A program made the position numbers and the translations under genes. The notes beneath the pieces were generated by a model. The model saw only the letters and a program-made list of their open reading frames with translations. It was not told the origin of the DNA and ran no database searches. Shown here in pieces: positions 1,557 to 60,692 of a stretch of 64,000 bases of DNA. Source of the stretch: Thermacetogenium phaeum DSM 12270. GTDB lineage: Bacteria; Bacillota; DSM-12270; Thermacetogeniales; Thermacetogeniaceae. Location: the NCBI RefSeq assembly GCF_000305935.1, contig NC_018870.1:1544001-1608000 (forward strand), written 5' to 3'. Position 1 is the stretch's first letter; every line of letters starts with the position of its first letter.

Positions 1557-2021
1557 ATGAAAATCAAACATCTGCTCATCCTGAGCGCGCTCTTGATTGC
1601 CTGAGCTTTCCCGGCGGCAGCAAGTGCTCTGGCGCTGCCTTCAGAACCACACCATGAGGAAGCCTTTGTTTGGCTTCAAAATGAGCACCATCACGAACTG
1701 CAACGAGCTTTGACGGTCACCGTCACCGCTTATTGTCCTTGCCCTATCTGCTGCGGAAAAAGCGACGGGATAACCTGTAGCGGCGTTCGGGCCAGGGCAA
1801 ATCGAACAATCGCCGTTGATCCAGATGTAATACCCCTGGGCAGCGAGGTCTATCTGGAAGGTCTAGGCATTTTTATTGCTGAAGACACAGGGGGGGTTAT
1901 CAAAGGAAACAGAATTGATATCTTTATGGAAGACCATCAACAGGCTCTCCTGTTCGGTATCAAAGAGATGAAGGCTTATATTCTTCAAAAAGAATCTGAG
2001 ATTCACGAAACCCTTTTGTAA
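1557..2021 (+). pseudogene. 3D-domain (YuiC/MltA-like) secreted protein with in-frame TGA at codon 16
   Basis: ATG at 1557 follows a strong ribosome site (GGGAGGGTGAACGC). The frame encodes a signal peptide (MKIKHLLILSALLIA, then TGA at 1602-1604, then AFPAAASALA) and an approximately 110-residue 3D domain. The three conserved aspartates of the domain are visible in AVDPD, AEDTGG and NRIDIFM. Homologous domains occur in muralytic or stationary-phase cell-wall proteins (YuiC, YabE C-terminus, MltA). There are also four clustered cysteines (YCPCPICCG). Apart from the TGA the frame is intact to the stop at 2019-2021. This could be a nonsense mutation (for example from GGA, TGG or TGC), a sequencing error, or recoding. 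A downstream start at TTG 1708 would lack a signal peptide and has no clear ribosome site. It is convergent with cheR and overlaps it by 19 bases. Confidence 0.7.
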
Positions 2022-2776
2022 AAAAAGGAGGCAACGGCCTCCAGGCCGAGCCTGGAGGCCTGAAATATCTGCTCTGTACTCCCGGTAAAGAGAACACCTC
2101 CCGGACGCAGGGCGTCACGCAACATCCTGTAAAGAACACTTTTCGCCTCTTCAGTAAAATAAATCATCACATTGCGGCAGAGAATAAGATCACAGAAGGC
2201 GGGATAAACATCCCGGAAAAGGTCATGATGCCGAAATTCAACCATTTTTTTTATGTCATCGCTGATCTGGTAATGATCCTCTTTAATGTAATTAAAAAAC
2301 TTTTTCAGCTGGGTCGGAGGAACATTAAGGAGAACCCTCCTTCTGTAAAGACCCTCTTTTGCCCTGCTAAGAACGCGATCATCGATATCAGTTGCCAGAA
2401 TCCGCGGTCTAACGCCGGGAAAATATTCTCGCATCACCATTGCCAGGGTATAGGGCTCTTCACCCGTAGCGCACCCTGCACTCCAGAACACAGGCCTCGG
2501 ATTTACCCTGATGATCTCCGGAAGGATCCGCTCCACAAGCACGTCCCATTGAGAGGGATTCCGGTAAAATTCACTGACATTGATGGTCAAATGGTTTAAA
2601 AATCTCTCCAGGAGAACGGAGTCCCGTTTTAAATCCCTGAGATACTCTCGATATCCGGGGTATCCCTCCATTGACATCAAGGAAGTGATCCGGCGCTGCA
2701 TCTGGGGGCGTTTGTATTTCGTCAAATCAATTCCTGTAAAATCTCCAATCCTTTTGATGAATTCCTCAAACTCCAT
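2003..2776 (-). CDS. cheR: CheR-type chemoreceptor glutamate methyltransferase
   Basis: 257 residues. The N-terminal helical CheR domain (about 1-75) is followed by a SAM-dependent methyltransferase domain. Motifs seen are WSAGCATGEEPYTLAM (SAM binding), ILATDIDDRVLSRA, LILCRNVMIYF and the C-terminal LFTGSTEQI. In the family, the enzyme methylates glutamates on methyl-accepting chemotaxis proteins. The ATG at 2776 directly abuts the hemL stop (TGAATG), so it is probably translated from the heme operon message. No other che genes are adjacent. One possible client is the Rossmann-chemoreceptor fusion at 58547-59401, but that link is inference. Confidence 0.9.
   Translation of the reverse strand: MEFEEFIKRIGDFTGIDLTKYKRPQMQRRITSLMSMEGYPGYREYLRDLKRDSVLLERFLNHLTINVSEFYRNPSQWDVLVERILPEIIRVNPRPVFWSAGCATGEEPYTLAMVMREYFPGVRPRILATDIDDRVLSRAKEGLYRRRVLLNVPPTQLKKFFNYIKEDHYQISDDIKKMVEFRHHDLFRDVYPAFCDLILCRNVMIYFTEEAKSVLYRMLRDALRPGGVLFTGSTEQIFQASRLGLEAVASFFYKRVS
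2036..2060. repeat. Perfect 11-bp inverted repeat inside the 3' end of cheR
   Basis: GGCCTCCAGGC and GCCTGGAGGCC flank a 3-base loop. The repeat lies between the two convergent stop codons. On the minus strand a run of seven T follows 9 bases after the stem, just before the cheR stop, so it may help end transcription. It does not have the layout of a canonical intrinsic terminator. Confidence 0.5.
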
Positions 2777-57778: not shown

Positions 57779-58516
57779 TTAAGATTCCTGCTTCCTTTTA
57801 GCCAGTTTCTTCAGTCTTTCCACCTCAATTCTGGAGAGGAATCTGTATTCGCCGGGACGCAACCCATGAAGACCAAGAAAGGCGATTCTGGTGCGCTTCA
57901 ACTCGATGACCGGATGCCCAACATAACTGCACATTTTTCGTACCTGTCTCTTTTTGCCTTCTCGAATGCTGATTTCCAGCAGCGACCTGCCACCGGAAAG
58001 TACCGCCAGCAAACGCACCTTCGCCGGGGCTGACCTTCCCTCAGGAAGAGGCACCCCCCGGCGCATCTGCTGCAGTGCCGCCGAAGTGGGTTTTCCGGCC
58101 ACAAGGGCGTGATAGGTTTTCCAGATCCCGTACCTCGGGTGCGTCATAAGCTCAGCCAGCTCGCCATCATTCGTTAAGATTATCAGCCCGCTTGTCATGT
58201 AGTCCAGTCTTCCCACCGGAAAAAGGCGAACCCCAGGCAGCTGTACGAGATCTGTTACCTTCGGCCTGCCCTGGGGGTCCCTGACCGTAGATACGTACCC
58301 TTTTGGCTTATAGAGAAGCACAGAGGTGTTTTCCCGGGGAAGAATTACTTCGCGGCCGTCTACGCAAATCCTGTTCACTCCCGGATCGACCTTCATTCCC
58401 AGTTCGGCTTTTTTTCCGTCAACAGTAACCCTGCCTTCCCGGATGAGCTCTTCACAAAAACGCCGCGCTCCTACTCCAGCTTTTGCCAGAACCTTCTGCA
58501 GCCGTTCGCCCGCGAT
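57779..58516 (-). CDS. rluB: RluB-type 23S rRNA pseudouridine synthase, start codon unclear
   Basis: About 245 residues. The catalytic motif VGRLDYMTSGLIILTNDGELA holds the active aspartate; KTYHALV and REGKKRQVRKMC are also present. Before the first ATG (58396), the same frame encodes a complete S4 RNA-binding domain (GERLQKVLAKAGVGARRFCEELI). No ATG, GTG or TTG lies in frame upstream of it before the TAA at 58549. Two GTG codons at 58530 and 58527, with good spacing, are in another frame. An ATC (58516) or ATT (58546) start, or a one-base loss in GGAAG, would explain it. Confidence 0.85.
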   Translation of the reverse strand: MAGERLQKVLAKAGVGARRFCEELIREGRVTVDGKKAELGMKVDPGVNRICVDGREVILPRENTSVLLYKPKGYVSTVRDPQGRPKVTDLVQLPGVRLFPVGRLDYMTSGLIILTNDGELAELMTHPRYGIWKTYHALVAGKPTSAALQQMRRGVPLPEGRSAPAKVRLLAVLSGGRSLLEISIREGKKRQVRKMCSYVGHPVIELKRTRIAFLGLHGLRPGEYRFLSRIEVERLKKLAKRKQES

Positions 58517-58546
58517 CTTCCTTTCACCACCTTGATCCTCAGCAAT

Positions 58547-59401
58547 TTAAGACATACTGGCCAGCCTAAGGGCCACCTCCTCCAGCTCCCCAGCCAGCCT
58601 ACCCAACTGGGTTATGGTTGCTGCAACCTGTTCCGTAGCCGCGGCCTGCCCGGCACTAACTCCGGCAGTTTCACTGATTCCATCTATTATTTCCCCGACG
58701 GATTTTTCAATATTCTTTAGAATAACCCCTATTTGCTCCGCCGAGACGGCACTGTCCTCGGCGAGCTTCCTCACCTCATCTGCAACAACGGCGAAGCCTC
58801 GCCCGTGCTCACCGGCTCGCGCAGCCTCAATAGCCGCATTCAGCCCCAGAAGCTTAGTCTGGGTGGCCACCTTTTTAATGAAATTGAGCACCTCATCCGT
58901 ATCCGTTACATAGTTTTTCGCTTTATCGGCGATACTCCCCAGCTTTTTCCCCTGAGAAGCCAGATTTTCGGCACCTCCGGCCAGCTCCTGGGCACTTGCC
59001 GCAATTTGCTTGACACTTTTGTTCATTTCATCAGTCATAGCAGCCAGTTGCTGTGCCCGACGATGCAGTTCATTGATCATCTCCTCCTTGGCTTCCACCA
59101 TTATCATCATCAAGCGCGCTGCGGATGCGTCTATGATCTTGGTTTCCGGCTGCTTGTTCTCGTATAATAATTCCTGCACCTGGGGAACGCCTGTGGCTTC
59201 AATCACAATTTCCAGATCCGGCAGCTTTAATAAATCCAGACAATCCCTGAAAGTTTTAATCCCCAATTCACGTGCCAGCTTGATCCCTTGGGCATTGTCA
59301 TCAATATCAGCAATCCCCACAACGGTTACCCCAGGCAACCCATAGGTGGCCGCCAGGATCGCCTTGCCACCTTTTCCTGCCCCAACGATACCGATATTCA
59401 T
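58547..59401 (-). CDS. Cytoplasmic chemoreceptor with N-terminal Rossmann domain
   Basis: 284 residues. Residues 1 to about 100 are a dinucleotide-binding fold like aspartate/homoserine dehydrogenases: [14 protein letters not shown] at 3-16, acidic end VVGIADIDD at 27-35, and [11 protein letters not shown] at 64-74. From about 105 a coiled-coil methyl-accepting chemotaxis signalling domain follows, with hairpin tip [31 protein letters not shown] at 184-214 (shown as [14 protein letters not shown] and [15 protein letters not shown]). No membrane helix is present. It would report NAD(P)(H) or another ligand state to CheA/CheW. The 3' end abuts rluB. Confidence 0.85.
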
Positions 59402-59558
59402 TTTTTCCGCCCCCCCTCGGAATTACAGAAATATTTCGACATTATTCACTTCTTTCCTGCCATTTCCCGCTTTTATTACCGCGCTCTTGATAGCCGCCCC
59501 GTTGGCTTGGACGGCTTGAAAAAGAAACCATGAGTAAATCGTTCTTGAGTTAAGTTCT

Positions 59559-60095
59559 TTAGGGGTTAAAAAGCAGGTGACAGATAAAAAGGGAGGCAAT
59601 AAGTCCGGTCAAGTCGGCAAGCAACCCCAGGGCCACAGCATGCCTGTAACGCCTGACGCCGACCGAGCCAAAATAGACCGTCAAAACAAAAAAAGTGGTA
59701 TCCGTAGTCCCCTGCATTACAGAGGCCAGTCTGCCGGCAAAGGAATCGGGACCATATGTTCTGATGATTTCGGTGGCGATTCCCAGAGCGCTGCTTCCGG
59801 AAAGCGGTCTCATCAAGGCCAGAGTGAGAATATCGGGGGGAATCCCAAGCAGTCCGAGAAAAGGCGCCCCGATCCGGGCAAAGAGATCCATGGCGCCGGA
59901 CTCGCGAAAAACCTTTATAGCAACAAACATGGCCACCAGGTAAGGGATGATTCTGACGGCGGTTTGAAAGCCTTCTGCCGCTCCCTTGATAAATGCTTCA
60001 TAGACAGGAACACGGCGCACCCATCCCAGCACAAGAAACAGACATAAAAGAAAGGGAATTGCCCAGCGGGATACGGCCTCCAATAACTGCATCAT
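59559..60095 (-). CDS. spmB: Spore maturation protein B
   Basis: 178 residues with about four membrane helices. MRPLSGSSALGIATEIIRTYGPDS and QGTTDTTFFVLTVYFGSVGVR match SpmB. Nucleoside-recognition (gate) domain family. With SpmA it supports spore core dehydration. ATG abuts the spmA stop. Confidence 0.94.
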   Translation of the reverse strand: MMQLLEAVSRWAIPFLLCLFLVLGWVRRVPVYEAFIKGAAEGFQTAVRIIPYLVAMFVAIKVFRESGAMDLFARIGAPFLGLLGIPPDILTLALMRPLSGSSALGIATEIIRTYGPDSFAGRLASVMQGTTDTTFFVLTVYFGSVGVRRYRHAVALGLLADLTGLIASLFICHLLFNP

Positions 60096-60692
60096 TTAAA
60101 ACACCCGCCGCCTCGTTTTGATGAAATTGCGCCATAGGGAGTCGAGGAGCAGGACGAAGGCCATGGAAAACCCGGTAGCAAAGATAGTAGGGCCGACAAT
60201 CTCGGTGGGATTAACGGAACCTGCAGCGATGCGGACACCGATGATGGTGGCGGGCACCAGGGTGATGCAAGAGGTGTTGGCAGCCAGGAATGTACACATT
60301 GCATCGGAAGCCGTATCCGGACGGGGATTGAGCTTCTGCAATTCCTCCATGGCTTTGAGGCCGAAAGGTGTGGCAGCATTTCCCAATCCCAGAATATTGG
60401 CGCTGATATTCATAATGATCGCCCCTAGAGCGGGGTGTTCAGGGGGCACCTCTGGAAACAACCTAACAGCCAGCGGGCGCACAAGGCGCGCCAAAATCCT
60501 GATCAAACCGGCCTGCCGGGCGACCTCCAGCATCCCCAGCCAGAGAGTCATCAACCCGATTAGATCCAGGCAGACCTTGACCCCCTCGTCGGCGGCGCTG
60601 AAAAATGTTTCTGTGATGATGTCGATCCTGCCGTTTCCGGCCGCTACAACAACCCCAGCCAGAATCAAACAAAGCCAGATCAGGTTGAGCAT
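60096..60692 (-). CDS. spmA: Spore maturation protein A
   Basis: 198 residues, several membrane helices. PALGAIIMNISANILGLGNAATPFGLKAME and LAANTSCITLVPATIIGVR are typical of SpmA. ATG 60692 follows GGAGGAGGGAG. The order dacF-spmA-spmB is the one seen in other spore formers. Confidence 0.95.
   Translation of the reverse strand: MLNLIWLCLILAGVVVAAGNGRIDIITETFFSAADEGVKVCLDLIGLMTLWLGMLEVARQAGLIRILARLVRPLAVRLFPEVPPEHPALGAIIMNISANILGLGNAATPFGLKAMEELQKLNPRPDTASDAMCTFLAANTSCITLVPATIIGVRIAAGSVNPTEIVGPTIFATGFSMAFVLLLDSLWRNFIKTRRRVF

Follow-up and report, generated by a model that had tools for sequence, protein, structure and literature searches.

Soluble chemoreceptors have been described before: HemAT, YfmS and the soluble receptor of Thermotoga are cytosolic, lack a HAMP domain and carry a sensor joined to the MCP hairpin. 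Few receptor types are known through which a cell steers by its own energy or redox state and not by chemicals outside it. Two other regulators bear comparison. The redox repressor Rex uses a Rossmann domain to read the NADH/NAD+ ratio, and the BkdR-type sigma54 activators of Bacillus direct their output to transcription.

Here we describe a protein in which a Rossmann domain, not a globin, is joined to the signalling hairpin. Its gene lies in the window (the whole 64,000-nucleotide stretch of Thermacetogenium phaeum DNA that was analysed). Its architecture, fold and conservation, the sharing of its front end among output types and the presence of a chemotaxis pathway in the host were computed here. 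At a probability of roughly 0.55, we propose that it works in the cytosol as an NAD(H)-binding receptor and relays the metabolic or redox status of the cell to CheA. The reading as a redox or metabolite sensor, already suggested in a preliminary description of this DNA, is well motivated, if unproven.

Architecture and relatives of the fusion protein

The gene is a single open reading frame on the minus strand, running from an ATG at 59401 to a TAA at 58547–58549 and encoding 284 amino acids. It and its immediate surroundings comprise:

57779..58546, minus strand: rluB-type pseudouridine synthase (Pfam S4 and PseudoU_synth_2), conserved directly downstream neighbour, outside the mechanism
58547..59401, minus strand: Rossmann–chemoreceptor fusion gene, 284 amino acids plus stop; homologues with this architecture reach 76% identity
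59129..59401, minus strand: Rossmann-type input domain, residues 1–91 (Pfam, AlphaFold, Foldseek)
59410..59418, minus strand: GAGGGGGGG, likely ribosome-binding site judging from its sequence, about 8 nt ahead of the fusion-gene ATG
59559..60692, minus strand: spmB and spmA (named by recognition), directly upstream neighbours conserved in relatives, outside the mechanism

Pfam places GFO_IDH_MocA, a Rossmann NAD-binding family, at residues 1–69 (E 4.2e-6, exceeding the gathering score) and MCPsignal (PF00015) at residues 163–279 (E 9.5e-29), and has no dedicated model for the N-terminal module. The predicted models contain a Rossmann domain and a helix and nothing else. No transmembrane segment is visible in the protein, either in Kyte-Doolittle profiles with 19-residue windows or in the structure models; the highest window mean, 1.58, falls within the Rossmann core, and a membrane segment is therefore unlikely. 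Reading frame, Pfam and model thus agree with the preliminary description, which had seen a GxGxxG Rossmann domain fused to a chemotaxis coiled coil with an intact tip, with neither a membrane helix nor a classical ligand-binding domain. From its sequence we take the protein to be a soluble, presumably cytosolic, chemoreceptor whose Rossmann front end runs into the chemoreceptor coiled coil.

The earlier reading depended on the fold of the N-terminus, which AlphaFold, run on this domain with 40 homologues, models confidently as Rossmann (mean pLDDT 96.4), with strands at residues 2–6, 26–31, 49–51, 65–68 and 88–90, helices between them and the next helix starting at residue 92. The best PDB match found by Foldseek is 1nvm, the NAD domain of acetaldehyde dehydrogenase (E 4e-5, TM 0.71 on the query, 26% identity), followed by further pyridine-nucleotide dehydrogenases; with such enzymes as the top structural matches, S-adenosylmethionine was set aside as a ligand. 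Profile searches with the domain recovered acetaldehyde dehydrogenases at E 8.8e-9, with Rex as a weak match, and its closest sequence relatives are acylating acetaldehyde dehydrogenases and Gfo/Idh/MocA enzymes. The dehydrogenase-like character claimed earlier is thus borne out, although not the specific likeness to aspartate or homoserine dehydrogenase: PF03447 matches only at E 0.019, its 16 bits falling short of the 24-bit cut-off, and the profile search favours acetaldehyde dehydrogenases.

The resemblance to the NAD domain of acylating acetaldehyde dehydrogenase (1nvm, 4lrs) extends to fold, order of motifs and best sequence-profile match, but in the fusion protein the signalling helix replaces the catalytic domain of the enzyme. 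By both Pfam and the model, no catalytic domain of the acetaldehyde dehydrogenase or Gfo/Idh/MocA type is present, and the helix and MCP signalling domain follow directly. The difference from Rex is of another kind, since Rex is a winged-helix DNA-binding protein, whereas the domain described here is an exchangeable input module at the N-terminus.

Nine close or moderately close relatives have the receptor gene between spmB and rluB, and spmB was found at 13 of 57 short-receptor loci; in other relatives the gene adjoins parB-like, transport or unrelated genes. Chemoreceptor genes show no linkage to redox genes. We dropped the neighbours as a clue to the signal of the receptor, the spm-rluB cluster being conserved housekeeping within the clade and replaced by parB-like or transport genes elsewhere, and read this setting as location, not function. 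The rluB frame encodes its S4 domain upstream of its first ATG (58396), and has no in-frame ATG, GTG or TTG between the receptor stop codon and that ATG; translation may therefore begin, in coupling with the receptor gene, at a rare codon such as the ATT at 58546.

The predicted nucleotide site

Three elements of the domain form the predicted site:

59366..59383, minus strand: GAGKGG, residues 7–12, dinucleotide-binding loop between beta-1 and alpha-1; G7, G9 and G12 in 140 of 141 homologous domains
59306..59308, minus strand: D32, acidic residue directly after beta-2 (26–31), predicted to hold the adenosine ribose; aspartate in 138 of 141, glutamate in 1 of 141
59189..59194, minus strand: T70-G71, turn after beta-4 (65–68); T70 in 139 and G71 in 131 of 141

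GxGxxG, D32 and T70 are retained in 138–140 of the 141 domains, across all output types and several phyla, which suggests a common ligand. In Rossmann enzymes, GxGxxG and an acidic residue after beta-2 together mark a dinucleotide site, the acidic residue favouring NAD(H) over NADP(H). The N-terminal module therefore most likely binds NAD(H), the preference over NADP(H) coming from D32, a position that the HMM alignment does not superpose strictly on acetaldehyde dehydrogenase.

Pockets of the acetaldehyde dehydrogenase type accept CoA as well, and so NAD(H) is not the unique choice of ligand. The module might instead sense CoA or acyl-CoA, or the ratio of acyl-CoA to free CoA, in which case the receptor would report carbon flux; we regard this as improbable, though worth weighing. 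It draws on the acylating acetaldehyde dehydrogenases being the nearest relatives in both fold and sequence, and on one family member that weakly matches the CoA_binding family. Against it, the glycine motif and acidic residue are the usual NAD signature, and no CoA-specific motif was found in the module.

A module shared among output types

The 108-residue domain was used as a query against 300 sampled genomes of the host's phylum, of which 109 gave a match at E<=1e-3, some of the weak ones being ordinary oxidoreductases, and about 87 (counted from the match table) a match at E below about 1e-8. A scan of the host genome gave no second copy with a meaningful score. Relatives were sought with a family alignment of close relatives, a broader alignment having no usable stretch. 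Homologous domains occur on chemoreceptors, sigma54 activators, histidine kinases, GGDEF and HD-GYP proteins and receivers, in at least seven phyla. In Pfam scans of these homologues the domain is followed by a short MCP, or by an MCP with about 200 unannotated residues in front of it; by PAS, sigma54 AAA and Fis HTH, by sigma54 AAA directly, or by PAS-HTH without AAA; or by GAF-PAS-HD-GYP. In bacteria other than Bacillota it precedes HisKA-HATPase in Nitrospira, Elusimicrobia, Kiritimatiellota, Eisenbacteria and Spirochaetes, a GAF-PAS-kinase-receiver-GGDEF chain of about 1100 residues in Nitrospirota, Deltaproteobacteria, Zetaproteobacteria and others, and GGDEF directly in Magnetococcales. 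In the receptor form of about 500 residues (L034, L036, L040, L044–L048), which begins with the Rossmann domain and ends with the MCP, no Pfam family matches the 200 or so middle residues in those members that were scanned.

A tree of the 141 domains resolves few deep forks and clusters output types strongly; the most parsimonious count on it is seven changes of output class, with fewer forced by the well-supported branches alone. On the sequences compared, the N-terminal domain is best described as a portable input module common to several classes of signalling protein, a generality missed by the preliminary description. A search of the openly accessible literature, by Pfam names among other terms, returned no description of such a chemoreceptor or sensor domain, and a 2019 survey of sigma54 activators in Clostridiales does not include a Rossmann domain among the N-terminal domains it lists (PMC6615313). 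The sensor module is thus apparently undescribed in this literature and in Pfam, and the Rossmann variant is new among the already known soluble chemoreceptors.

The genes beside the transcription-factor fusions bear on the ligand. Eighteen of 24 such fusions adjoin at least one gene for fumarase, SdhC (succinate dehydrogenase cytochrome b), MeaB, SucC (succinate-CoA ligase beta) or Ptb (phosphate butyryltransferase), as identified by NCBIfam, in operons for fumarase, succinate dehydrogenase, methylmalonyl-CoA or branched-chain acyl metabolism, a proportion that is not a probability since the counts come from many related genomes and are not independent. None of the other fusion types stood beside these genes at the loci examined. 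The MeaB, succinate-CoA ligase and phosphate butyryltransferase operons are acyl-CoA operons and would suit a CoA sensor, but fumarase and succinate dehydrogenase operons contain no direct CoA step.

Fumarase genes account for 13 of the 24, and a C4-dicarboxylate would therefore be a natural inducer. BkdR, moreover, responds to isoleucine or valine. Both points favour a domain whose ligand is a different small metabolite, such as a dicarboxylate, amino acid or other nucleotide, held in a pocket retained from a dehydrogenase, with or without a permanent nucleotide. We think this a little less probable even than CoA sensing, given that the invariance is concentrated around the dinucleotide site, that the protein lacks a second domain in which a substrate could sit, and that most sigma54 fusions have a separate PAS domain as a possible inducer holder. 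The recurring context of catabolic oxidation and redox functions is in line with an NAD(H) input, and acyl-CoA would be nearly as natural for the operons named. Among the PAS-HTH proteins without sigma54 AAA (L077–L082), in which the Rossmann motif has diverged to GxGxEG, four of six also adjoin fumarase genes.

Three of the sigma54 fusions (L060–L062) have a Ptb gene downstream and a glycerophosphodiesterase-like gene, recognised by eye, upstream. Spo0A was confirmed upstream of L060, and L060 and L061 contain two PAS domains. Because Spo0A upstream, two PAS domains and Ptb downstream are features of BkdR, these three are probable BkdR orthologues that carry the N-terminal Rossmann domain of the fusion receptor; two papers on BkdR (PMC3734008, PMC4428206) describe no domains but its pair of PAS/PAC domains.

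In Nitrospira the glutaredoxin Grx4 lies near 13 of 23 histidine-kinase loci. At L127, L153 and other Nitrospira loci the Rossmann–histidine kinase gene has a receiver gene on one side and another large histidine kinase on the other, with Grx4 nearby. In Nitrospira and relatives there are also short proteins (L123, L126, L129, L132, L137, L147, L170) in which the Rossmann domain is C-terminal to a receiver, the reverse of the usual input position. A domain that follows a receiver and ends the protein is less typical of an input, and could point to a Rossmann domain that no longer binds a ligand and acts as a unit for dimerisation or for docking, for example to a metabolic enzyme or a partner sensor. 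We consider this unlikely, as near-invariance of the nucleotide-site residues in 141 sequences from several phyla is not expected of a pure scaffold.

NAD(H) is our preferred ligand. We give about even odds to the wider proposal of an unnamed cytosolic family that crosses phyla, in which an NAD(H)-reading half-dehydrogenase was joined on separate occasions to chemoreceptors, histidine kinases, sigma54 activators including BkdR, diguanylate cyclases and HD-GYP proteins, and would supply a shared redox or catabolic input to movement, transcription and second messengers. The same front end on so many proteins suggests a little-noticed shared part that reads internal redox or metabolic state. Since it sits on kinases, on transcription activators (probably including the textbook regulator BkdR) and on cyclic-di-GMP enzymes, the ligand of the module would give the input signal for a large number of signalling proteins, so far uncharacterised, of Bacillota, Nitrospirota and other phyla.

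Coiled coil, chemotaxis machinery and proposed mechanism

The signalling part of the protein, with the methyltransferase encoded elsewhere in the window, consists of:

58862..59128, minus strand: unbroken helix that leads out of the last Rossmann strand and into the N-terminal arm of the coiled coil; the model shows it from residue 92, without a linker domain
58985..58990, minus strand: Q138-E139, predicted methylation site of the N arm, consensus match at -60/-59 from E198
58757..58861, minus strand: chemoreceptor hairpin tip (CheA/CheW contact region) with tip glutamate E198; Pfam MCPsignal, PDB matches to Tsr and Thermotoga receptors
58550..58756, minus strand: C-terminal arm of the coiled coil; the stretch between the tip glutamate and the C-terminus measures 86 residues, identical in 13 relatives
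58628..58633, minus strand: E257-Q258, predicted methylation site of the C arm, consensus match at +59/+60 from E198
2003..2776, minus strand: CheR methyltransferase, Pfam CheR (PF01739), E 4.4e-53

The hairpin tip is intact and aligns with Tsr and Thermotoga receptors, and the Foldseek matches include YfmS and the Thermotoga soluble receptor. At the tip, the QTNLLALN of most receptors is replaced by QTKLLGLN, and the glycine is nearly invariant within this Rossmann-receptor family. The helix between domain and tip is free of indels in nearly all close relatives, and the distance from the start of the Rossmann match to E198 is nearly always constant among relatives, and that from E198 to the C-terminus exactly so in 13 of them; the register of the coiled coil is therefore conserved. 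An accidental, functionless gene fusion, in whose favour we found nothing, is ruled out for practical purposes by this conservation: many genera share the fusion with constant geometry, an intact tip and an intact nucleotide site. The full-length model draws the coil as one long helix, not the expected hairpin (pTM 0.48), a weakness of the monomer model. The general methylation consensus [ASTG]2-x2-[EQ]2-x2-[ASTG]2 has just two matches in the protein, symmetric about the tip and in the same hairpin layer; a more distant subset of receptors lacks the heptad containing the first of them (Q138/E139).

In the mechanism we propose, the N-terminal 91 residues would be the nucleotide-binding half of an acetaldehyde-dehydrogenase-like enzyme, with the coiled coil in place of the catalytic half. 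Nucleotide occupancy, or the oxidised or reduced state of bound NAD(H), would report the redox and catabolic status of the cell. Since the last Rossmann strand runs straight into the helix, a change in the domain would alter coil packing or dimer geometry and hence CheA activity, and CheR-dependent methylation at Q138/E139 and E257/Q258 would give adaptation. Nucleotide binding, the identity of the nucleotide, the direction of the response and methylation are what we infer in this scheme. A nucleotide-binding receptor, if confirmed, would be a direct and simple route to steering by internal state.

The pathway into which such a receptor would signal is present in the host. The CheR gene noted earlier in the window is real, and CheA and CheW, on whose presence the earlier reading also depended, are both encoded: the genome (a single contig of 2.94 Mb) has eight MCP-domain matches, CheW domains in seven places, and CheA, CheC, CheD, CheY-like proteins and flagellin, the genes that we take to be CheA and then CheC and CheD having been assigned by recognition. 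A second chemosensory cluster (L187, host C1:520500-533500) encodes a triple-CheW protein, a HEAT-repeat protein, a short CheR_N-only protein and a CheA-like kinase.
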